This document shows positions 97-13,636 of a DNA stretch of 38,078 nt, in pieces (position 1 is the first letter of the stretch; each line of letters opens with the position of its first letter). The translations under genes and the position numbers were made by a program. Below the pieces are notes generated by a model. The model ran no database searches. It was given only the letters and a program-made list of their open reading frames with translations, and was not told the DNA's origin. This DNA comes from Enorma massiliensis phI (GTDB lineage Bacteria > Actinomycetota > Coriobacteriia > Coriobacteriales > Coriobacteriaceae). The stretch lies in NCBI RefSeq assembly GCF_000311845.1, contig NZ_HE978574.1:1569008-1607085 (forward strand), written 5' to 3'.

Positions 97-1068
97 CTAT
101 TTGAAGAGACGGCGGTAGAGCTTGAGCGCGGCGTCCCACACGTGGTAGAGCGGCGAGAGCGGGCGGTCGAACGTGCCGATCCACACCGTGGGCTCGCCGG
201 CGAACAGCAGCTTGAAGTTGCTCACACCGCCCTCGAGCAGGCCGTTCAGATCGTAGAGCGCGGCCCCCGCCTCCTTAGCGGCGCACATGGCATGCCATTT
301 GAGCAGGTAGTTCGCCCGCAGGCGCTTGCCCTCCTCGGTCACGCCGCCCCACAGCTCGAACGCCGTGCCCGACGTGGTGATGTTCCACAGGAACGCGAGC
401 GGCCGCCCCTCGAACTCCGCGAGAAAGACCTGGTTGACATCCGAGCACGCGGTGAACGCGGTGCGGTAGTACTCATCGGTGTGGAGCGCGAAATCATCGC
501 TCTCCGCGGTGTGGTGGTAGATGTCCATGATCGCGTCGAGGTCGTCTGCCGTGGCGCTGCGCACGGTCACGCCCGAACGGCCCGCCTTGCGGATGTACTG
601 CCGCGCCTTCTTCGAATGGAGGCCCGCCATGATCTCGTCCTCGCTGGGCGCCAGGTCGATGGCCGCCGTACGGGGCAGCGAGATCTTCTCGGAGGGGAGC
701 CATGCGCTGCTCAGCGCGACGGAGCCCTCCGGGACGGCCGGGTCGATCTTGAGGGAGACGGCCGAGAGGTTCGCCTTGCACCACGCCGCGACGTCGTCCG
801 CGACCCGGGGGACATCGGCCGTCCGGTCCGCCACGGGGCCGCGCGGGGCGTAGCAGATATGGCCGAACGGCCAGGGGAGCTTGCGAACGAGCACCTGGCA
901 TGCGCCGGCGAAGGCGCCGTCGCGCTCGACCACGATGCGCCGCGCCCTCCACGAGCCCGTGTGCTCCTTGAGCTCGCCCCATCCCCATGCCTGCATGGGG
1001 TGACCGGCATGCTCGTTGATGAGACGGTTCCATGCACCAGCGTCGGTGACCTCGCGATATTCGACCAT
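97..1068 (-). CDS. FemX/FemAB-family peptidoglycan bridge aminoacyltransferase
   Basis: This 323-residue protein resembles FemX/MurM-type ligases, which move an amino acid from an aminoacyl-tRNA onto the side-chain amine of the stem-peptide diamino acid in UDP-MurNAc-pentapeptide or lipid II, in the cytoplasm. The length fits the compact FemX form with two GNAT-like lobes and no coiled-coil arm. Family-like features are the QAWGWGELKE segment near residue 26, the SKKARQYIRKA segment around the middle, and the C-terminal YDLNGLLEGGVSNFKLLF motif. The start at 1068 is chosen because AAGGTTGGAG sits 3 nt upstream; an upstream in-frame ATG at 1152 would overlap the divergent tRNA promoter. The nearest neighbour, divergent and 106 bp away, is an unusual tRNA gene, and other cell-wall genes follow. 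The amino acid transferred cannot be read from the sequence. Confidence 0.88.
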   Translation of the reverse strand: MVEYREVTDAGAWNRLINEHAGHPMQAWGWGELKEHTGSWRARRIVVERDGAFAGACQVLVRKLPWPFGHICYAPRGPVADRTADVPRVADDVAAWCKANLSAVSLKIDPAVPEGSVALSSAWLPSEKISLPRTAAIDLAPSEDEIMAGLHSKKARQYIRKAGRSGVTVRSATADDLDAIMDIYHHTAESDDFALHTDEYYRTAFTACSDVNQVFLAEFEGRPLAFLWNITTSGTAFELWGGVTEEGKRLRANYLLKWHAMCAAKEAGAALYDLNGLLEGGVSNFKLLFAGEPTVWIGTFDRPLSPLYHVWDAALKLYRRLFK

Positions 1069-1133
1069 GAGCTCCAACCTTTTCTCGATTTCAACTGCAT
1101 ACTCTATCATGCCCGCATATCTCGCCAGCGCCC

Positions 1134-1161
1134 TTGCACTAATACGACACATTGGTATAAT
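1134..1161 (+). promoter_or_regulatory. Promoter of the solitary tRNA gene
   Basis: TTGCAC (1134-1139) and a consensus TATAAT (1156-1161) are separated by 16 nt. Transcription would begin at about 1168, only a few bases before the mature tRNA 5' end. This is one of the best -10 boxes in the window. Confidence 0.75.
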
Positions 1162-1174
1162 GTGCTCTGCACCT

Positions 1175-1249
1175 GCCGGTGTAGCTCAACGTTAGAGTAC
1201 CGGTCTTGTTTTCCGGGGATGCAGTGTTCGACTCCTGCCATCGGCTCCA
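1175..1249 (+). tRNA. Aberrant tRNA, Gly-like body with UGU at the anticodon position
   Basis: A 75-nt cloverleaf can be drawn. The acceptor stem (GCCGGTG 1175-1181 with CATCGGC 1239-1245) is complete, followed by U73 and an encoded CCA. The D-arm is GCTC / GAGT with a 7-nt loop AACGTTA, which lacks the usual G18-G19 pair (AACGGTA in ordinary tRNA-Gly). The anticodon stem has four good pairs plus a U31-U39 mismatch; the loop is CTTGTTT, giving TGT (Thr) at 34-36 with U instead of a purine at 37. The T-arm keeps TTCGACT but has one bulged T (1225). The 4-nt variable loop, U73 and D-loop resemble bacterial tRNA-Gly more than tRNA-Thr. Promoter and terminator are intact and the gene stands alone, divergent from a FemX-type ligase. 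It may be a non-proteinogenic tRNA for cell-wall synthesis, or a decaying tRNA gene. Amino-acid identity is uncertain. Confidence 0.7.
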
Positions 1250-1261
1250 TCGCTTCTCGTG

Positions 1262-1282
1262 ACCGCCTTCGGGTGGTTTTTT
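1262..1282 (+). terminator. Intrinsic terminator of the tRNA gene
   Basis: ACCGCC and GGTGGT pair (6 bp including one G-T) around a TTCG loop and are followed by a run of T. It lies 12 nt after the encoded CCA, so the tRNA is a single-gene transcription unit. Confidence 0.8.
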
Positions 1283-1413
1283 CATATCTGCACCAAGCGG
1301 GCAGGAGGCTGCACCCAAGGGATTTGGACCTCAGGACACAGGCCTCATCGAGCGGTTGCGTCGGCGGCCTCTGGAGGATTCGGGCGACCCCTGCGCCCCC
1401 CTCACCAGTAGTC

Positions 1414-1419
1414 TATAAT
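1414..1419 (+). promoter_or_regulatory. Candidate -10 box for the ATP-grasp/aminotransferase operon
   Basis: A consensus TATAAT lies 72 nt before the start of the first ATP-grasp gene, without a recognisable -35 box. The rest of the gap 1283-1490 shows no gene and no clear structure. Confidence 0.45.
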
Positions 1420-1490
1420 CGCAGGCGACCGAAGGGCTCGACGCTCAGCCGTCGCGCCCGGCACCATCCGCAACCTATCCCGGAGATTCT

Positions 1491-2735
1491 ATGCCCTCTT
1501 CCACCACGCCCGCGCGCACCGACTTCGTCCCAGTCGTCCTCGGAGGGGACATCGGGTCGTACGCGCTCATCCGCGAATTCCACGAAGCCTACGGCATCAA
1601 GAGCATCGCCATGGGAACCGGCTTCATCGGGGCCATCACCCATTCGAAGATCGCTGAGCTCCACCATATCGACGCCTACGCCGAGCGCCCGCTCCTGCAG
1701 GGCCTCGCGGAGGTGCATGAGCGCTACCCGGAGCGGCGCATCGTGCTCGTCGCCAACACCGACCCGCTCATCGACACGCTCGAGGGCATGCACGACGACC
1801 TGCCCGCGTACGTCTCCTGCACCATCCCGCCGCGCACGGCGTTCGACGCCGTCTGCGACAAGGGCACCTTTGCTCGGCTCTGCCGCGAGCACGGCCTCGA
1901 GGCGCCGCGCACCGAAGTCGTCCGCCTCTCCGGAACGGGCCCCATCGCCCCCTCGGAGATTCCCTTCCCCGTCGTGGCGAAGCCCGCGGTCTCGGCCGGG
2001 TACTACGGCACGCTGCTCAAAGGCTTCAAGAAGGTCTACTACATCACGGCCCAGGCGGAGCTCGACGAGCTCTGGAGGGGCCTGCGGGCGGCGGGCTTCG
2101 ACGGCGACTTCCTCGTACAGGAGCTCATCGGCGGCGACGACACCTACATGGACTCCCTCACGCTCTACATCGGCCGCGACGGCAGGCCGCGCCTGCTCGG
2201 CGCCGCCCAGGTGCTCCTGGAGGACCACGCGCCTGCCATGCTCGGCAACCCCGTCGCCATGCTCATCCGCGAGAAGCAGGAGCTCTGGAAGCGCGCGGCC
2301 GAGCTCCTCGCCAGCGCGGGCTACCGCGGCTTCGCGAACTTCGACGTGAAGCGCGACCCCGCGACCGGACGCGAGGTCTTCCTTGATTGCAACCCCCGCA
2401 TGGGCAGGAATTCGTACTACAACGTCGCAGGCGGCGTTAACCCCATGGAGGTCCTCGTGCGCGACTCGATCGACGAGGCAGACGACGAGGTGCGCGTCGC
2501 GAGCGACCCCGCCCTCTACACGCTCGTCCCGCTGTCGCTCCTGCGCCGCTACGTGCGCGATGAGGCCCTGCTTTCCGAGGTCAACGACCTCATCCGGCGC
2601 AAGCGCGTCTTCGACCCCCAGCGCTACGCGCCCGACCGCGGCGTGCGCCGCATGCTCGACGTCGAGCTGACCGAGAAGAACCAGATCAGGAAGTTCGCAC
2701 GGTACTACCCCGAGGCCACGGACACCTCGTTCTAG
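1491..2735 (+). CDS. ATP-grasp ligase, D-aspartate ligase (Asl)-like
   Basis: This 414-residue soluble protein resembles the ATP-grasp family (COG3919) that includes the enterococcal D-aspartate ligase, which couples a D-amino acid to the side chain of the stem-peptide Lys using ATP. The N-terminal segment FVPVVLGGDIGSYALIREF resembles the start of that enzyme. K164 (VVAKP) sits where ATP-grasp folds bind ATP, and the metal-binding motif is DCNPRMGR at 299-306 (family form E/D-x-N-P-R). The start has GGAG about 6 nt upstream. The DegT-family gene follows 72 nt downstream in the same direction, so the two probably form an operon. A paralogue with the same MPSSTT start lies at 5755-7008. The family assignment is firm; the substrate (D-Asp or another amino acid) is inferred. 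Confidence 0.8.
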   Translation: MPSSTTPARTDFVPVVLGGDIGSYALIREFHEAYGIKSIAMGTGFIGAITHSKIAELHHIDAYAERPLLQGLAEVHERYPERRIVLVANTDPLIDTLEGMHDDLPAYVSCTIPPRTAFDAVCDKGTFARLCREHGLEAPRTEVVRLSGTGPIAPSEIPFPVVAKPAVSAGYYGTLLKGFKKVYYITAQAELDELWRGLRAAGFDGDFLVQELIGGDDTYMDSLTLYIGRDGRPRLLGAAQVLLEDHAPAMLGNPVAMLIREKQELWKRAAELLASAGYRGFANFDVKRDPATGREVFLDCNPRMGRNSYYNVAGGVNPMEVLVRDSIDEADDEVRVASDPALYTLVPLSLLRRYVRDEALLSEVNDLIRRKRVFDPQRYAPDRGVRRMLDVELTEKNQIRKFARYYPEATDTSF

Positions 2736-2807
2736 CGTGTCCGGCGCGGGTAGGCGCACCGCCGCGCAAGCGCCGCCTCAGAAAACCTTCGATGAAAGGA
2801 CGACGGA

Positions 2808-4010
2808 ATGCCGCAGCACCAAGAGACCGCGAACGCCCTCAAGGGCCTGCGCGAGGCGTTTGCCGAGCGGACGGGCACGCGTGCCCGCGATTGGCACCTC
2901 GTGTTCAAGGCGCGCTACGGCATGCGCGAGGTGTTCCGCACCCTCCGCGAGCAGCGCGGCGACGGCGCGGTCGTCACCACGCTCTTCACCGGCTGCACCG
3001 CCGTCGACTCCATCACGTCGGCGGGGCTCAGGCCTACCTACGCCGCCATCGACCCCGCGACGCTCACCGTCGACGCGGAGGCGCTGGAGGTCGGGGCGAA
3101 CGTCCGCGCCGTGATCGACCAGCATTCCTACGGCATGATCGACGCGCAGAAAAGCGCGCGGTGCGCCGAGAAGGCCCACGCGGCCGGGGCGCTCTACGTG
3201 GAGGACAGCGCCCATTGCCTGGCCCGCATGGCGCGCGATGCCTCCGGCGCGCCGCTCGCCGACATCTCCATCCATTCGATCGGCATCGAGAAGCAGCTGG
3301 GCGTGGGCTTCGGCGGCGCAATCTGGGTTAACCCCGCACTCGAGGACGCCGGGCTGCACCGCGCGCTCGAGGACGCGTTCGACGCGCTGCAGCCGCTCCC
3401 GTCCCGGATCGCCGCCGCCGCGCACCGCTACCGCCTGCAGAACCGCGTGCTCGCGCATCTGCCGCGCCCCATCAGCAGGCCGGCCCGGGCCGGCCTCGCC
3501 GCGGCAGGCCTCCTCGAGCTGCCGGTCGCCGAGACGGAGCGCGAAGGCCGGCTTCCCTATCCCGGGTACCTGCCGAGCGAGGACATCGCCCAGAAGATCC
3601 TCACCGCCTTCCCCACGCTCGACGCCGACGAAGCGAACAGGATCCGCTGGACGCAGGGCTACCTCGAGGCCCTCGAGGGGCTGGGCGGCATCGAGATCCC
3701 CGGTGCGGCGCGCGGTGCGGCGCGCGACCAGGCGCTCATCCGCTTCCCCATCATCCTCCCCAGCGAGGCCGCGGCGGACCCCCTCATCGCGGACCTGCGG
3801 GGCAACCATCTGTACTGCGTCGACTGGTACCGCGTGCCCTTCTACCCGGGCGCGCTCGACCTCTCCGCCTACGGCATGTCAGAGGACGATCAGAGCTACC
3901 GGGAGTTTCGCGCCCGCTACGGCGGCATCGTCGGGCTTCCCACCGATATCGACATCGAGCGCCTGCCCGAGGCCGTCGAGATCGTCCGCCGGCACGTGCG
4001 CCGCTCTTAG
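2808..4010 (+). CDS. DegT/DnrJ/EryC1/StrS-family PLP aminotransferase
   Basis: This is a 400-residue PLP-dependent fold-type I enzyme. The features seen are a substrate-entry segment TLFTGCTAVDSI near residue 57, DQHSYG at 104-109, VEDSAH at 131-136 with the Asp expected to contact the pyridine nitrogen, and SIGIEKQLGVGFGGAIWV with K162 in the place of the Schiff-base lysine. Family members usually aminate nucleotide-linked keto-sugars, but some act on other ketones, so the substrate is unknown. GAAAGGA lies about 8 nt before the ATG. The gene is the second and last of the ATP-grasp operon, which suggests it prepares or modifies a component used by the ligase. That is inference. No sugar-nucleotide genes are nearby to support the classical role. 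Confidence 0.75.
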   Translation: MPQHQETANALKGLREAFAERTGTRARDWHLVFKARYGMREVFRTLREQRGDGAVVTTLFTGCTAVDSITSAGLRPTYAAIDPATLTVDAEALEVGANVRAVIDQHSYGMIDAQKSARCAEKAHAAGALYVEDSAHCLARMARDASGAPLADISIHSIGIEKQLGVGFGGAIWVNPALEDAGLHRALEDAFDALQPLPSRIAAAAHRYRLQNRVLAHLPRPISRPARAGLAAAGLLELPVAETEREGRLPYPGYLPSEDIAQKILTAFPTLDADEANRIRWTQGYLEALEGLGGIEIPGAARGAARDQALIRFPIILPSEAAADPLIADLRGNHLYCVDWYRVPFYPGALDLSAYGMSEDDQSYREFRARYGGIVGLPTDIDIERLPEAVEIVRRHVRRS

Positions 4011-4189
4011 AGCCGTCGCTCGCAAGGTGGGCGACAGGCGCGCCAGCACGGGTGCGGGCCGCGCATCTACCACGCGCGTCGGTGCACAGCCGCCGGAATA
4101 CCGGCGCGCACAGCGGCGCGCGTGGCGTCCGTCCCGCATTCACCCGTTTGAGCGCGCCGTTCCTGCGCACCCACCCCTCGATATGAAAC

Positions 4190-4221
4190 GAGGCCCCGCA
4201 GCGCATGTGCCACGGGGCCTC
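4190..4221 (-). terminator. Hairpin between the convergent DegT and NlpC/P60 genes
   Basis: GAGGCCCCG (4190-4198) and CGGGGCCTC (4213-4221) form a perfect 9-bp stem with a 14-nt loop. On the minus strand it is followed by GTTTCAT, a weak T-tract, so it probably ends the NlpC/P60 transcript. The rest of the 4011-4189 gap shows nothing recognisable. Confidence 0.5.
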
Positions 4222-4259
4222 ATCGACAATCGGAACGAAGAAAGCCGACTAAGGATCCA

Positions 4260-5492
4260 TTACACCGGCGAGCCGCCACCAACGAAGTTGCGGGAATTCG
4301 AGCTGAGGCTGCTCCTGATGACACCAACGCCGGGCGACGATGCATGCACGTAGCGGCCGCCCCCGATATAGATGCCGACGTGGTAGATGCTTGAGCTGCT
4401 GCCGCCATAACCCCAGAACACGAGGTCGCCAGGCGAGAGGTAGGAAGTATTCGTGACCAGATGGCCCTTATTTTTCACGAGATTGCACTGAGCCTGGGAG
4501 GAACGCGGAAGCGAGATGCCGACCTGCTTGTAGCTGTACTGCACCAGGCCGGAGCAATCGAACGTGTCGGGGCCCTCGGTGCTGAAGACATACGGCTTGC
4601 CAACCTGCGCCAGAGCGATATCTACGACGCTTGACGGGGCATTGCCGGAATCGGTGTTGTTGTTCGAGCCGCCACCGCCGCTGGATCCACCGTTGTTGCT
4701 GGAGCCGCCGTTGTTATTGGACCCTCCGTTGTTGGAGCCGCCGCCGTTGTCGTTGGAGCCCCCGTCGTCGTCAGATCCGCCGTTGTCGTTATTCGAATTG
4801 CCGTTATCGCTGCCGCCACCCTGGTTGTTGTTGGCGGCCTCCTCGGCTGCAGCCTGCTCGGCAGCGGCACGCGCCGCCTCCTCGGCCAGAGCGGTCTGGA
4901 GCTCGCTATCAAGGCTGTTGTAATACGACTGCTGCTCGGAAACCTTCGACTGGATATCCTCGGTCTTCTGCTGCTGATCGCTCACCAGCTGCTGCTGCTC
5001 TTGCTCCTGCGTCGCAAGGTCGCTCTTCTTCTGCTCGAGCTCCTGCTGCGTCTGCTTCACCTGATCGATGAGCTCGGCATCGCGGTTGGCCATGCTATTC
5101 GCATAGTAGACGCGAGAAAGCAGTTCCTCGAAATCGGAAGCGCCGAGCACCACGGAAAGCGTGCTGTTGGAGCTGTTCTGCTTGTAGGTCTCGGCAAGGC
5201 GCTGCGAAAGCTCGGCCTGGCCCTGCTCAAGCTCCTGCTGCTTCTCCTCGATATCAGCCTCGGTCTGCTGAATCTCGGCCTGCACCGACTCAAGGTCGGA
5301 CTGGAGCTGGTAGAGCTCGTTATTTGCCGCCTCGAGCTCGTTGGAATATGTCATAAGCGTGCTGTACGCGTCGTTGACCTTCGACTGAAGGTCCGCTGGA
5401 TCGTCCGCAAAGGCAGTAGCCGGCACGCCGCTCAGTGCGAGCGACGCGGAGGCGAACAGCGTTACAGCGATTCTGGCACGTTTGAGCTGCAT
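4260..5492 (-). CDS. Secreted coiled-coil NlpC/P60 peptidoglycan endopeptidase
   Basis: This 410-residue exported hydrolase has a signal peptide at 1-29 (cleavage after AFA) and a Gln/Glu-rich coiled coil at about 32-215. An Asn/Gly/Ser linker follows at about 221-285, then an NlpC/P60 domain at about 287-410. The catalytic set is visible: C313 in FDCSGL, H371 in YHVGIY and H383 in YVHAS. The layout matches PcsB/RipA/CwlO-type cell-separation enzymes that cleave the stem peptide, with the coiled coil holding activity in check; that regulation is known for relatives and inferred here. GAGAGGA precedes the ATG. The 262-nt upstream gap (5493-5754) contains a TATAGT-like -10 on the minus strand but no clear -35. 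Confidence 0.9.
   Translation of the reverse strand: MQLKRARIAVTLFASASLALSGVPATAFADDPADLQSKVNDAYSTLMTYSNELEAANNELYQLQSDLESVQAEIQQTEADIEEKQQELEQGQAELSQRLAETYKQNSSNSTLSVVLGASDFEELLSRVYYANSMANRDAELIDQVKQTQQELEQKKSDLATQEQEQQQLVSDQQQKTEDIQSKVSEQQSYYNSLDSELQTALAEEAARAAAEQAAAEEAANNNQGGGSDNGNSNNDNGGSDDDGGSNDNGGGSNNGGSNNNGGSSNNGGSSGGGGSNNNTDSGNAPSSVVDIALAQVGKPYVFSTEGPDTFDCSGLVQYSYKQVGISLPRSSQAQCNLVKNKGHLVTNTSYLSPGDLVFWGYGGSSSSIYHVGIYIGGGRYVHASSPGVGVIRSSLSSNSRNFVGGGSPV
4638..4832 (-). repeat. Low-complexity Asn/Gly/Ser linker-coding repeat
   Basis: Roughly 65 codons of imperfect tandem NNGGS/NNNGGS units join the coiled coil to the NlpC/P60 domain. The DNA is built from short repeats of GTTGTT and GGAGCC-like units, so length change by slippage or recombination between strains is likely. 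Confidence 0.8.
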
Positions 5493-5754
5493 ATCATCAG
5501 TCCTCTCAATCGCAAGACCTGTTCACTATACCAACCATGCGCCGCACACGCCACCACCGCGCCCAAGCTTCAAACGATGGGCACACTGCTTAAGATGCGC
5601 GCGGCAAGATTCGCGCGGAACGGCCGCCGATTCGCTCACGGCGCCGCGATCTCTTTCGTACGGAGCCGTTCTCCAATTCGCACGGCGCCGTCCGCCCACC
5701 CAAGCACGAGCTCTTCCTCTAGACGCCCGTCACGCTGGAGCACGGACCCAGCCA

Positions 5755-7008
5755 CTAGATACCCGTCGCGTTGATGCGGGGGTAGTACTTCGCGAACTTG
5801 CGATAGTAGTTGAGGCCGATGGCCGTCTCCGTAAGGTTGCGGCGCAGGTCGTGTTCGAAGGGCGCCTTCGTGGGATTCACTGCCCTACCGGCGCGAATCA
5901 GGGAGCGCGCCTCGCTGGCAAGATCGCCCGAAAGATAGCGCAGTGCGAGACGCAGGGGCACCACGGAGTAGAGCGCCGTCTCGCGGTGCGTGAAGAGCGG
6001 CAGGTCCTCCTCGTCGAGCAGGTCCTTCACACCAAGCCACATGGGGTTCACCGCCGAAGCAGATACGTAATACGAGTTCCTCCCCAAGCGCGGGTTGCAC
6101 TCGAAGACGAAAAGCTCGCCCGTGCGCTCGTCTACCTTGAGGTCGAAGTTCGCCGGCCCATGCCAGCCCACCGAACGCAGCAGCTCGACCGCTCCCCGCG
6201 AGAACGCGGAGAGATCGCGCGTGACCATGGTCACGGGGTTGCCGATCATGTCGGGCCTGTGGTCCTCGAGCAGCACCTGCGCGCCCGTATCGAGCACGAG
6301 CTCGCCACGCCGATCGATGTAGACGGTGAGCGAGCGCTTGAAGGTGTCGTCGCCAAAGACCGGCTGCTGCATAAGCATGGTGCCCGAGAAGCCTACCTCG
6401 CGCAGACGCCGGAACAGGTCGTCGACCTCGGGCTGGGATTGGAGTAAATAGACCTTGTCGAACCCCTTGCGCCGCGCCGGCACATATTCAACGGACGAGG
6501 AGGCCTTGACGATGACAGGGAAGGCGTCGGGCCAGGGCTCGATGGGCGCGTCGCCGGCGAGCGAGACGTTCACCGTCTTGGGCAGACGAACGCCGTGCTC
6601 TGCCGCGAGACGCGCGAACGACTCCTTGGTATCAACGGCGTGTATCGCATCGAGCGGAGCAGCGAGCACGACGACGCCCTGCGGCAGGCTGTCGCGGATG
6701 CGCGCGATGTTCTCGACATGCATATCCATATTGCTCGTCACGAACAGGCGCTTGCCGCCCGCCGTGCGAGCAAGGTCGCAGATCGTCTCGCGGATGTGCT
6801 CGGCATCCATCTTGCGCAGCGGAACAACGTCGAAGATCGTGGAGCGCGAGATGGCGCTGATCGGCGCGGGGGCGATGCAGTAGGACCGAACGCCGAACGC
6901 CTCATAGAACTCTCGACCAACCGCATAGGCACCAAGATCGCCGCCAACGATGACCGGGATGAAGTCGTCACGCCGCTCGATGGGCGAAAACGTGGTTGAG
7001 CTGGGCAT
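5755..7008 (-). CDS. Second ATP-grasp ligase, D-aspartate ligase-like paralogue
   Basis: This 417-residue protein is homologous to the ATP-grasp ligase at 1491-2735. It has the same opening MPSSTT, the same DDFIPVIVGGDLGAYAV-type N-terminus, and the same VLLEDH(R/A)P block followed by a GNPV motif. The metal site is FECNPRLGRNSYY near residue 300. The start at 7008 is set by GGAGG about 9 nt upstream; a longer reading to 7071 has no ribosome site. It is transcribed away from murJ and towards the NlpC/P60 gene. Like its paralogue it probably adds an amino acid, possibly D-Asp or a second bridge residue, to peptidoglycan precursors. The difference in specificity between the two copies cannot be read here. 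Confidence 0.78.
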   Translation of the reverse strand: MPSSTTFSPIERRDDFIPVIVGGDLGAYAVGREFYEAFGVRSYCIAPAPISAISRSTIFDVVPLRKMDAEHIRETICDLARTAGGKRLFVTSNMDMHVENIARIRDSLPQGVVVLAAPLDAIHAVDTKESFARLAAEHGVRLPKTVNVSLAGDAPIEPWPDAFPVIVKASSSVEYVPARRKGFDKVYLLQSQPEVDDLFRRLREVGFSGTMLMQQPVFGDDTFKRSLTVYIDRRGELVLDTGAQVLLEDHRPDMIGNPVTMVTRDLSAFSRGAVELLRSVGWHGPANFDLKVDERTGELFVFECNPRLGRNSYYVSASAVNPMWLGVKDLLDEEDLPLFTHRETALYSVVPLRLALRYLSGDLASEARSLIRAGRAVNPTKAPFEHDLRRNLTETAIGLNYYRKFAKYYPRINATGI

Positions 7009-7155
7009 AAACCGCCTCCGAAGTGTTTTGAACGCAAGCAACAGCTTGCAAGTATAACTTTGCTCTCGCACCTGGCCGCGCCTACACAGAATACCCAGCC
7101 GAGAGCCGCGAAGCCCGCGCGCAAATCTGGAGATGCCATCGACGCGCCGCGTGCG

Positions 7156-7164
7156 TGCTAGAAT
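7156..7164 (+). promoter_or_regulatory. Candidate extended -10 promoter of the murJ-like gene
   Basis: TGCTAGAAT fits an extended -10 element (TGnTAnnnT) 62 nt before the murJ ATG. No -35 match is seen. The 218-nt gap 7009-7226 lies between divergent genes and must also hold the promoter of the second ATP-grasp gene, where TATACT occurs on the minus strand without a good -35. Confidence 0.4.
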
Positions 7165-7226
7165 GGCGGCTTAGCTTGAAACGCCGTCGCTGAGCCCTCC
7201 CCCAGCGACCTGCGCAAAGGATCGGC

Positions 7227-8909
7227 ATGAAGCATTCAAACAACGCCACCTCGAACGCGAGCGCCCACCAGCCCAAGCATATGCGGAGCGCCCAAGCAGA
7301 ACCCGCGAACTCGGCCACGACGACCGCCTCTCGGTCGGATATCGGGCGCAGCACGCGCATGATGAGCGTGCTCGTGATTCTCTCCCGCCTGACGGGCTTC
7401 CTGCGCACGTGGGCGCAGGCGTTCGCCGTGGGCGCGACCATCATCTCGAGCTGCTACACGCTTTCGAACAACCTGCTCACACAGCTGTACGGCCTTGTTG
7501 CCGGCGGCCTGATCGTCACCGGGTTCATGCCCGTCTACGTCCAGGCACGCAAGCGCGGCGGGCAAGAGAGCGGCAACGACTACGTCTCCAACCTCCTGAG
7601 CATCGTCGGGCTCGCGCTCGCCGTGATCGTCGCGCTTTCCATCATCTTCGCCCCGCAGCTCGTATGGCTGCAATCGTTCAACGCGACCAGCGACTTCGAT
7701 GCCGACCTCGCAGTATGGTTCTTCCGCATCTTCGCCGTCGAGTTCCTGCTCTACCCGCTTTCGGGCATCTTCACCGGCATCAACAACGCTGACCGAGAGT
7801 ATTTCTGGAGCAACTTCGCTCCCACGCTGAACAACATCATCGTGGCCGCGTCCTTCGGCATCTACACGGTCCTTATGCCGGTGAACCAAGAGCTCGGGCT
7901 CATCGTTCTCGCAATCGGCAACGTGCTCGGCGTGGTGTTCCAGGTCGGCGTCCAGATTGTGCCGGCGCTCCGCCGCGGCGTTCGCTTCCGCTTCAAGGTG
8001 GACCTCCGCGACCCTCGCCTCAAGGACACCCTTTCCATCGGCGTTCCCATGCTCGCCGTCACCATCACCACGTTCATCACATCGTCGATTCAGACGAGCT
8101 ACGCGCTGTCCATCTCGGCTGCGGCCTCGTCCATCATGTACTATGCGCAGGTGTGGTACGCGCTTCCGTACTCGGTCTTTTCGACGCCGCTTTCCACCGC
8201 GCTCTACACCGAGCTCACGGAAAGCTACGCCACCGGCGACCTCGACTCGTTCCGGCGCGACCTCGCAGACGGCACCAACTCCATCAGCTTCTACCTCATC
8301 CCGTGCACCCTGTTGCTCATTGTGTTCTCCATCCCGCTCTCATGTGTGCTTGCGGGCTCGATGACCACGGACGACATTCTCATGACCGCGAACTACCTTT
8401 CGTGGTGCGCGCCGACCCTCACGTTCTGGGGGCTCGCCGGCTACCTGCAGAAAGCATCGAGCTCGATGGGGCGCATGAGCTATTTCGCCGTCTCCGCCGT
8501 GCTGGGCAGCGTGGGGCAAGCGCTCATCTGCGTGGTGTTCACGCCGATCTTCGGGCTGCCCGCCGTCGCGCTCTCCAGCCTCGCTTACCAGGGAACGCTG
8601 GTCATCGTCACGTTCGTCGTCATGCGCAAGCGCCTGGGCCGCATCGGCCTGCGCGGCATCGTCAAGGGGCAGTTGCAGGCATTGATCGGGGGTATCGCAG
8701 GAGCCATCGTCGGCGGTGCGCTGCTCTGGCTGGTTGGCGGGTTCAACCCCGCAATCGGAGCCATGCGCTCGGTCGTCAACTGCGTGATCGCCGGTGTTCC
8801 CGCGCTGATTGCGGTTGTTGTCGCAGGCACGGTGCTCGGAAACCCCACTGCGGTCGAGCTCGTGGACAGCGGCAAGCGGGCGCTCAGGCGCCTCACGGGG
8901 CGGAGGTAG
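7227..8909 (+). CDS. murJ: MurJ/MviN-type lipid II flippase
   Basis: This is a 560-residue polytopic membrane protein of the MOP superfamily that flips lipid II across the cytoplasmic membrane. The MurJ N-terminal helix motif is clear: SRLTGFLR at 53-60 with R54 and R60, followed by NNLLTQLYGLVAGG and FMPVYVQ. About 14 hydrophobic segments follow through residue 545. Compared with ordinary MurJ proteins there is a hydrophilic Ser/Ala/Asn-rich extension of about 40 residues before the first membrane helix. The ATG is preceded by AAAGGA. It belongs functionally with the neighbouring cross-bridge ligases, which build the lipid II that MurJ exports. It ends 54 nt before the convergent ybaK-like gene; a small CCGTGC/GCACGG hairpin (8918-8933) without a T-tract lies between. 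Confidence 0.9.
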   Translation: MKHSNNATSNASAHQPKHMRSAQAEPANSATTTASRSDIGRSTRMMSVLVILSRLTGFLRTWAQAFAVGATIISSCYTLSNNLLTQLYGLVAGGLIVTGFMPVYVQARKRGGQESGNDYVSNLLSIVGLALAVIVALSIIFAPQLVWLQSFNATSDFDADLAVWFFRIFAVEFLLYPLSGIFTGINNADREYFWSNFAPTLNNIIVAASFGIYTVLMPVNQELGLIVLAIGNVLGVVFQVGVQIVPALRRGVRFRFKVDLRDPRLKDTLSIGVPMLAVTITTFITSSIQTSYALSISAAASSIMYYAQVWYALPYSVFSTPLSTALYTELTESYATGDLDSFRRDLADGTNSISFYLIPCTLLLIVFSIPLSCVLAGSMTTDDILMTANYLSWCAPTLTFWGLAGYLQKASSSMGRMSYFAVSAVLGSVGQALICVVFTPIFGLPAVALSSLAYQGTLVIVTFVVMRKRLGRIGLRGIVKGQLQALIGGIAGAIVGGALLWLVGGFNPAIGAMRSVVNCVIAGVPALIAVVVAGTVLGNPTAVELVDSGKRALRRLTGRR

Positions 8910-8963
8910 CGCAAGCTCCGTGCAACAGCACGGCGCGGTGGCCGCGAGCGCGCTCGCCGCGCC

Positions 8964-9452
8964 CTACCGCGTGATGGCCGCCACCGTCGCTCCGACGAAG
9001 CTCACGAGGTCAGTAGGCGCGATCACGAGCTGGATGCCGCGCCGCCCGCCCGAAATGAAAATCTGATCCCACAGCTCGCAGGTCTCGTCGATGACCGTGG
9101 GAAACCGCTTCTTCATGCCCACGGGCGAACAGCCGCCGCGCATATAGCCGGTCACCGGAACGAGGTCGCGCACGTGCATCATGACGAGCGACTTCTCACC
9201 GAGCGCGCGTGCCGCCGCCTTGAGGTCGAGCTCTTCCGCCACGGGAATGCAGCAGACCGCGTGTCCGCCCGACGCCGTCTCGCACACGAGCGTCTTGAAG
9301 CCCTGGCCCGGCTCCTCGCCCAACTGCTCAGCCACGTGCACGCCGGAAAGGTCGTTCTCATCGACCTCGTACGTGCGCACGTCGAACGCGATACCGGCAC
9401 GCTCCAGCTCGCGCATCGCGTTCGTCTTCTGCAGCTTCTCGCGCTTGGCCAT
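8964..9452 (-). CDS. ybaK: Cys-tRNA(Pro) deacylase, YbaK/EbsC family
   Basis: This 162-residue protein has the full-length YbaK fold, which hydrolyses Cys-tRNA(Pro) formed by prolyl-tRNA synthetase errors. Typical features are the KTNAMRELERAGI opening, GFKTLVCE (the lysine aligns with the catalytic lysine of the family), the Gly-rich VTGYMRGGCSPVG segment and the ISGGRRG turn near the C-terminus. GGGAGGG lies just before the ATG. It follows uvrA by 53 nt in the same direction and is probably co-transcribed. There is no visible link to the upstream aberrant tRNA apart from distance, so the generic editing role is the default. Confidence 0.93.
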   Translation of the reverse strand: MAKREKLQKTNAMRELERAGIAFDVRTYEVDENDLSGVHVAEQLGEEPGQGFKTLVCETASGGHAVCCIPVAEELDLKAAARALGEKSLVMMHVRDLVPVTGYMRGGCSPVGMKKRFPTVIDETCELWDQIFISGGRRGIQLVIAPTDLVSFVGATVAAITR

Positions 9453-9505
9453 CGACCCTCCCCTGCGTAAGCGCCCCTACGTAAGCTCCCCTGCGCCCAT
9501 GGCAG

Positions 9506-12373
<2,868 letters not shown>

Positions 12374-12518
12374 GTGCTCCCCCGTTCTGTGTTTCGCAGC
12401 CTCCGATTCTAGCGCACGGCAGCGCACGCCTGTTCGCGTTGTGCGGGCGTCACGGTTTGTCCAAGCCTTGTTCGATGCCGCTTCTGCACGGGACAGATTG
12501 CGCCCGCTCCCCCCGCCC

Positions 12519-12600
12519 CAATGAGACAGTTGTGCCGGGTCAAACTGTCTCACTTATTTTCGCCCAATGAGACAGTTGTGCCGGGTCAAACTGTCTCACG
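12519..12600. repeat. Tandem pair of palindromic dispersed repeats (family A)
   Basis: Two nearly identical 34-35-nt units (12519-12553 and 12566-12600) start 47 nt apart. Each is itself an inverted repeat: TGAGACAGTT ... AACTGTCTCA around a GTGCCGGGTC-type centre. A third, slightly diverged copy lies in the opposite orientation at 18227-18257, and a half-site like GGGACAGATTGCGCCCG is found at 12490-12506. The pair lies upstream of uvrA and upstream of the mrp-like gene. Confidence 0.8.
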
Positions 12601-12657
12601 GACGGACAATGCGCATTTTCATGCCGAAATCACCCAGCATCTGTGCATTATCCATCC

Positions 12658-12723
12658 GAACGTCATGGTGAGAAACGACGACGTTCAGTGAGCGCCGTTC
12701 GGCACGTGCATGATGGGTACAAT
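12658..12723 (+). promoter_or_regulatory. Candidate promoter and palindrome before the mrp-like gene
   Basis: A TACAAT -10-like box (12718-12723) lies 58 nt before the mrp start, without a clear -35. Upstream is a 7-bp inverted repeat GAACGTC (12658-12664) / GACGTTC (12680-12686) that could be an operator. The 12374-12781 gap otherwise holds the family A repeats and nothing coding. Confidence 0.35.
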
Positions 12724-12781
12724 ACGGACATACCAAACGTTCGCCCGGCCCGCAGCCGGGCTCTACATGAAAGGACGTCCC

Positions 12782-13636
12782 ATGGCTTCTTGCGAGCATG
12801 CAGCCGCCGCCGGCGGCCAGACTGCTCCCACGCAATTCGAGGAGAACAGCCTTTCCGAGGTGAAGCACGTTATCGCCGTGCTTTCGGGCAAGGGAGGCGT
12901 GGGCAAGTCGTTCGTAACCGGGGCGCTCGCCATCGAACTGAGCCGCCGCGGACACACGGTCGGCATCCTCGACGCCGACATCACCGGCCCCTCCATCCCC
13001 AAGATGATGGGCATGAGCGGCAAGCGGGCGAGCGGCCTCGGCAAGCTCCTCCTTCCCGAGATATCCGCCACCGGCATCAAGGTCATGTCTTCGAACCTCC
13101 TGCTCGAGCGCGAGACCGATCCGGTGCTCTGGCGCGGGCCCGTCATCGCGGGCGCCATCCGCCAGTTCTGGAGCGATACCTCCTGGGGCCCGCTCGACTA
13201 CCTCCTTGTTGACATGCCCCCGGGCACGGGCGATGTTGCGCTCACCGTGTTCCAATCGCTTCCGGTCGACGGCATCGTCGTAGTCACGAGCCCGCAGGAC
13301 CTCGTATCCATGATCGTCGCCAAAGCCGTGAACATGGCCGAGAAGATGCACGTGCCGATTCTCGGCATCATCGAGAACATGAGCTATATCACCTGCCCGG
13401 ATTGCGGCCGTAAGATCGAGGTCTTCGGGCAGAGCAACCTCGACGAGGTGGCGGCGGGCTATGGCCTCAAGGTCCTCGGCCGCCTTCCCATCGACCCCGC
13501 GCTCGCAGCCGCCTGCGACGAAGGCACCATCGAATCTGCGCTGCCCATGGGGCTTCTTCCTGAGGCGCTCGCCGTTTGCGAGGCGGTCGAGGTGCGCGCG
13601 AACGCAGATGCCGAGCCCGCTGAGCCAGAGGCGTAA
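12782..13636 (+). CDS. Mrp/NBP35-type P-loop ATPase, Fe-S cluster carrier
   Basis: This 284-residue cytosolic ATPase has a deviant Walker A GKGGVGKS at 36-43 and LDADITGPS as switch I. The signature VDMPPGTGD lies at about 143-151, and the cluster-bridging pair C205-x-x-C208 (ITCPDCGR) is near the C-terminus. Mrp/ApbC proteins carry and deliver Fe-S clusters to apo-enzymes as dimers. The start at 12782 has GAAAGGACG upstream; a longer frame from 12710 lacks a ribosome site. It is followed at some distance by two flavoprotein genes in the same direction, with no obvious promoter in the 170-nt gap. Confidence 0.92.
   Translation: MASCEHAAAAGGQTAPTQFEENSLSEVKHVIAVLSGKGGVGKSFVTGALAIELSRRGHTVGILDADITGPSIPKMMGMSGKRASGLGKLLLPEISATGIKVMSSNLLLERETDPVLWRGPVIAGAIRQFWSDTSWGPLDYLLVDMPPGTGDVALTVFQSLPVDGIVVVTSPQDLVSMIVAKAVNMAEKMHVPILGIIENMSYITCPDCGRKIEVFGQSNLDEVAAGYGLKVLGRLPIDPALAAACDEGTIESALPMGLLPEALAVCEAVEVRANADAEPAEPEA

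Follow-up and report, generated by a model that had tools for sequence, protein, structure and literature searches.

What is a solitary tRNA gene of aberrant structure doing beside a gene for a FemX-type cell-wall ligase, and which amino acid, if any, does its product carry? The window analyzed here is a stretch of 38,078 nucleotides (contig 1, positions 1569008-1607085) of a 2.28 Mb genome, and the tRNA is its sole RNA family match in an Rfam search. A promoter and a terminator belong to this gene alone, and femX is divergent from it. The preliminary description regarded it as a tRNA-Gly-like molecule reserved as amino acid donor for the FemX-type enzyme.

The non-canonical, tRNA-Thr-like gene occupies positions 1175-1249 (+ strand, 75 nt) and has the anticodon UGU, U73 and an encoded CCA. 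Positions 1175-1246 match the Rfam tRNA family (RF00005) over its full length with 45.1 bits (gathering score 29), the lowest score among the 48 Rfam tRNA matches of the genome, and the gene is missing from the ARAGORN output. Reading of the sequence confirmed the full acceptor stem, U73, CCA and anticodon of the preliminary description: the stem has 7 bp, and U73 lies at 1246, CCA at 1247-1249 and UGU at 1207-1209. The 7-nt D-loop (AACGUUA, 1188-1194, +) keeps G18 and has U instead of G19 (1192), the anticodon loop (CUUGUUU, 1205-1211, +) carries U37 at 1210 and is preceded and followed by the mismatched U31 and U39 (1204/1212), and the T-arm (1221-1238, +) has six bases in its 5' strand versus five in its 3' strand, with a bulged U at 1225. 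These defects, also listed at the outset, were all found on reading, and RNAalifold folded eight homologues into an identical cloverleaf that includes the T-stem bulge. In each of the genome's 45 canonical tRNAs, the D-loop GG is retained and position 37 is a purine.

The transcription unit that had been described proved to be real. A -10 element TATAAT (1156-1161, +), identified by reading, lies 13 nt upstream of the tRNA and is preceded, at a distance of 16 nt, by a weak -35 element TTGCAC (1134-1139, +), while an intrinsic terminator was called at 1261-1283 (+), 11 nt downstream. A consensus promoter scanner called no promoter for this gene because the -35 element is weak; TTGCAY occurs at the same place in three homologous loci (G003, G184 and G199), and -10-like hexamers occupy the corresponding place in the homologous loci. 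There the tRNA is followed by G+C stems and then T-rich tails, the terminator sequence itself not being conserved. A 735-aa open reading frame on the + strand across the tRNA was rejected as a shadow ORF.

The proposed kinship with tRNA-Gly had to be abandoned. The tRNA shares 72-78% identity with Thr(UGU) tRNAs versus 64% with the best tRNA-Gly, and the next best matches of a covariance model built on the non-canonical tRNAs (R1) were Thr(UGU). Bacterial glycine identity resides in G3-C70, C35 and C36, and threonine identity in G1-C72, C2-G71, G4-C69, G5-C68 and G34-G35-U36 (PMC9976931). The determinants of the staphylococcal wall tRNA-Gly are absent, with C3-G70, G35 and U36 in all eight non-canonical tRNAs, and the threonine determinants G1-C72, C2-G71, G4-C69, G35 and U36 are invariant in the same eight, pair 5-68 and base 34 being variable. 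The ordinary Thr tRNAs of the genome, with anticodons GGU, UGU and CGU, all carry U73, so that U73 is no mark of glycine here. Sequence identity and determinants rule out a tRNA-Gly origin; by its overall sequence, C3-G70, G35-U36 and the U73 found in the genome's other Thr tRNAs, the gene is, as judged from sequence, a fourth, extra tRNA-Thr. One ThrRS gene was found above the family cut-off, and with three ordinary Thr tRNAs and this synthetase, decoding and charging are covered.

The divergent gene (97-1077, -) was correctly described as coding for a FemX-type enzyme, an aminoacyl-tRNA-dependent peptidoglycan ligase. Its start codon is probably the ATG at 1068, the reading frame being open to 1152. 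The product matches Pfam FemAB (2.3e-28), and a profile of eight relatives matches FemX of S. aureus (6e-25) and FemX of W. viridescens (2e-16), the latter match being nearly full-length. AlphaFold gave a model of moderate quality (pLDDT 70), whose fold is matched best by these two enzymes. The FemAB profile and the double GNAT fold are both present, placing the protein in FemABX. Residues K36 and K305 of W. viridescens FemX align with the invariant K37 and K289, and the position of R211 is occupied by His. We take K36, R211 and K305 to be catalytic and substrate residues of the W. viridescens enzyme, with R211 presumably binding substrate.

Homologues of the tRNA are present in two genomes of the same genus (G002 and G003), in Collinsella tanakaei (G021) and C. 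ihumii (G029), and, in another family, in Olsenella sp. An270 (G184), G187 and G199. The close relative G002 is [Collinsella] massiliensis, which NCBI places in Enorma (Coriobacteriaceae). All eight tRNAs are 75 nt long, have U or C at position 19, carry the extra base in a six-base 5' T-strand and end in U73-CCA; A51-U63 is present in seven, and in the C. tanakaei copy the T-stem is broken further, with more pairs lost. U37 and the U31-U39 mismatch occur in seven of the eight, the exception being C. ihumii, where base 37 is A and 31 pairs normally with 39; the decoding defect is thus not shared by every copy. UGU, CGU and AGU all occur as anticodons, indicating that the wobble base drifts while G35-U36, which are read by ThrRS, stay. 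The C. ihumii copy (L066, 6009-6083), in which A37 is normal, is the one with AGU, which is unusual as the anticodon of a threonine tRNA in bacteria.

The six Enorma-like and Atopobiaceae tRNAs are 92-100% identical to one another, versus mostly 49-66% for their 75-nt flanks in global alignment, near the level of unrelated DNA; exceptions are 73 and 88% upstream in two close pairs. In three stem pairs, both bases have changed in a compensatory manner that keeps the pairing. Judged by its sequence, the tRNA is under selection and not decaying, because it is conserved against diverged flanks, its defects are kept and its stems are compensated. Conservation of the tRNA-femX pair with compensatory changes, which the preliminary description had suggested looking for, thus extends to eight genomes of three genera, and neither random decay nor a missing linkage, which it had named as grounds against its proposal, was seen: the defects are kept across three genera and the two genes lie in one cluster.

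A search of 397 Coriobacteriales genomes detected FemX at E < 1e-20 in 19, of which eight have a protein 61-100% identical and the other eleven one of 41-58%. The non-canonical tRNA, searched with R1, was found at 83 bits or more in exactly eight of the 397, the same eight that encode the close FemX. These represent three genera and two families, and the tRNA and femX are always in one locus. The next R1 matches, at 76 bits, were canonical Thr(UGU) tRNAs, and the weaker matches that were read were likewise canonical tRNAs. For the eleven genomes with a distant FemX, the tRNA was absent from the surroundings of that gene, up to ten kb on each side, where one tRNA-Leu call was spurious, and the best genome-wide R1 matches were all canonical or unrelated. 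From bare counts, the chance of such a match is ~7e-17 for 8/397 genomes and 3e-6 for 3/123 genera, figures that are not proper probabilities since the genomes are related; the eight are not independent, comprising three genera and perhaps a single origin followed by transfer. In the wider phylum, 396 sampled genomes contained the tRNA in none beyond two already known, and no exact match to it was found in viral contigs. The proposal of a donor reserved for FemX thus gains strong support for the reservation, through co-occurrence across 397 genomes and placement in one cluster, and none for the glycine kinship.

The eight FemX proteins form one clade with moderate support (83/76). The group of the window joins Atopobiaceae before Collinsella in the FemX tree (99/98), and the tRNAs split alike, at 92-97% for Enorma-like versus Atopobiaceae copies and 75-83% for Collinsella, which suggests, as far as the two sets of sequences go, that tRNA and femX move together between families. 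A protein of Bifidobacterium psychraerophilum neighbours the clade in the tree, and the genome of that species has no R1 match above 64 bits. At its locus (L095, 10001-15214), the FemX is 50% identical and DegT and ATP-grasp genes lie nearby in the absence of the non-canonical tRNA, so the wall cluster extends beyond Coriobacteriia.

The pair lies between uvrC and uvrA, in an interval that also holds genes for MurJ, ATP-grasp ligases and NlpC/P60 hydrolases. In the window, the tRNA is followed by an ATP-grasp carboxylate-amine ligase (1491-2735, +), a DegT/DnrJ/EryC1-type PLP enzyme (2808-4010, +) present in five of the eight loci, an NlpC/P60 peptidoglycan hydrolase (4260-5492, -), a second ATP-grasp ligase (5755-7071, -) 41% identical to the first, a MurJ-family lipid II flippase (7227-8909, +) and a YbaK/ProX-type aminoacyl-tRNA editing gene adjoining uvrA (8964-9452, -). 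In six of the eight loci, the tRNA and femX lie next to each other and diverge; in C. ihumii and C. tanakaei they are 3.8-4.4 kb apart, separated by two genes, for NlpC/P60 and MurJ. FemX-less uvrC-uvrA intervals, found in ten genomes including the same-genus G001 and G004, the latter 99% complete, lack the tRNA and keep MurJ, usually together with ATP-grasp and NlpC/P60 genes.

The first ATP-grasp protein has a confident AlphaFold model (pLDDT 88) with ATP-grasp fold matches that include an L-amino-acid ligase, and it is a possible second bridge-building enzyme. Cross-links of D-amino acids are made by ATP-grasp enzymes, those of glycine and L-amino acids by Fem ligases (PMC2922099); the first ATP-grasp protein may attach one more amino acid, perhaps of the D form. 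The two ligases, which are of the same family and flank the DegT and NlpC/P60 genes, may account for two further residues on the wall peptide.

In Coriobacteriales, the uvrC-uvrA interval resembles a hot spot for variable wall-biosynthesis genes, its sets of MurJ, ATP-grasp, DegT, NlpC/P60 and FemX genes differing between genera (window 97-13000 and loci L066-L069, L091, L096-L106 and L186-L195). In relatives, a protein of ~580 aa that contains long hydrophobic segments and matches no Pfam family is encoded between the tRNA and the ATP-grasp gene (L068 8349-10094, L069 8858-10600 and L096 10425-12170, all on the - strand); it is absent from the window. The YbaK/ProX gene adjoins uvrA in the examined Coriobacteriaceae even where FemX and the tRNA are lacking. 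It was rejected as part of the module, occurring in FemX-less relatives and not being found in the pair-bearing loci of Atopobiaceae. A reading of the cluster as a defence system was also discarded, with no PADLOC match.

We propose, with a probability of about 0.8, that the gene specifies a non-proteogenic tRNA-Thr dedicated to the adjacent FemX-type ligase. The single ThrRS would charge it via the kept acceptor-stem pairs and G35-U36. From known tRNA biochemistry, loss of the G19-C56 elbow contact, the bulged, weak T-stem, and U37 with the U31-U39 mismatch should together impair its use both by EF-Tu and in decoding, so that Thr-tRNA would stay available to FemX. FemX would then transfer L-Thr to the side chain of a peptidoglycan precursor, where it would form a bridge or a branch. 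Several observations speak against this reading: the distance between tRNA and femX in C. ihumii and C. tanakaei, the normal base 37 and 31-39 pair of C. ihumii, the relatedness of the eight genomes, the moderate support of the FemX clade and the His at the R211 position. The occurrence of the tRNA only with one FemX suggests that threonine is delivered to the wall and not to the ribosome.

The alternatives are best weighed against the same body of evidence. That the tRNA carries to the wall an amino acid other than threonine, such as Ser or Ala acquired by mischarging, is unlikely: Fem-type ligases such as MurM do take mischarged tRNAs (PMC4052509) and Coriobacteriaceae have a YbaK-type editing gene close by, but that gene is present also without FemX, the acceptor pairs and G35-U36 fit ThrRS, and no second ThrRS above the cut-off was found in the genome. 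Somewhat less likely still is a translating, slightly divergent fourth tRNA-Thr that hitch-hikes beside femX in a transferred cassette. Its cloverleaf and CCA are intact and its anticodon reads a Thr codon in every copy; however, the lost G19, the extra T-stem base and, in seven of eight, U37 are rare in translating tRNAs. The genome's other 45 tRNAs keep the GG and a purine at 37, and its ordinary Thr tRNAs supply the anticodons GGU, UGU and CGU already. Hitch-hiking would also leave unexplained the constraint on the sequence and its retention despite the rearrangement in Collinsella.

Deletion of tRNAOther alters the wall of B. cereus (PMC3399842), and a regulatory tRNA-like RNA that senses or controls wall synthesis, as proposed for tRNAOther, could be imagined in place of a donor. 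Against this, which we hold to be very improbable, stand the conserved ThrRS determinants, discriminator and CCA, a compact gene of tRNA size followed by a terminator of its own, and a partner that is an aminoacyl-tRNA-using enzyme of known type. Least probable of all is a decaying tRNA-Thr pseudogene, for instance the leftover of an island integrating at a tRNA gene. The lowest tRNA score in the genome and the additional broken pairs in C. tanakaei would suit such a relic, but the 92-100% identity across genera and two families beside diverged flanks, the compensated pairs, the kept promoter boxes and terminators, the defects common to all eight copies and the exact co-occurrence with FemX have largely refuted it. 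A second copy of the tRNA 3' end was not found within the window, and an attachment-site remnant was accordingly dismissed.

The dedicated tRNA-Thr proposed here resembles the tRNA-Gly species of the S. aureus FemXAB pathway in its altered D-loop GG and weakened T-stem (PMC4052509, PMC9976931), and in being present in addition to all canonical tRNAs, a Fem ligase presumably being its user; the changes at D-loop G18/G19 and in the T-stem, alongside a complete canonical set, are those by which a dedicated wall tRNA is recognized. S. aureus has three tRNA-Gly with UU or CU for G18-G19, plus A51-U63 (PMC4052509). The present tRNA differs in being specific for threonine rather than glycine by its predicted identity, in keeping G18 and losing only G19, in its bulged T-stem base and U37, in the location of its gene within the ligase's cluster, with which it is co-inherited, and in belonging to Actinomycetota rather than Bacillota. 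The linked ligase has family and fold in common with the FemX of W. viridescens and S. aureus, which use Ala-tRNA and Gly-tRNA, respectively (PMC4052509), whereas Thr-tRNA is predicted here. With tRNAOther of Bacillus cereus (PMC3399842) the proposed wall tRNA shares the character of a non-translating tRNA-like gene with a wall phenotype or role; tRNAOther, in contrast, is proposed to be part of a larger regulatory RNA and has no tie to a Fem ligase.

Our literature search, which covered mostly papers outside subscription, found no threonine wall tRNA or tRNA-fem gene pair and nothing usable on the wall bridges of Coriobacteriales. Threonine in the bridges of Micrococcus roseus was reported by Roberts et al. 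(1968), cited in PMC9142559. The donor there is reportedly a tRNA; we know of no description of a dedicated tRNA or ligase gene for that bridge. Dedicated wall tRNAs are known as a kind; what is new, as far as could be seen, is the amino acid, together with the lineage and the linkage of the two genes.

For most cases, it has been called unclear how charged tRNAs are diverted from the ribosome to the wall (PMC4052509). A natural genetic test is offered by one FemX clade that has a tRNA to itself, beside sister FemX clades that have none. It seems fairly probable that the orthogonal tRNA-Thr and its own FemX form a two-gene module that arose once, spread between families of gut Actinomycetota and installs threonine in peptidoglycan, which would be the first non-glycine wall tRNA to travel with its ligase. 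Dedicated wall tRNAs would then have evolved more than once, through similar defects (lost G19 and a weakened T-stem), and wall threonine is predicted in the culturable Collinsella tanakaei, C. ihumii, [Collinsella] massiliensis and Olsenella sp. An270.
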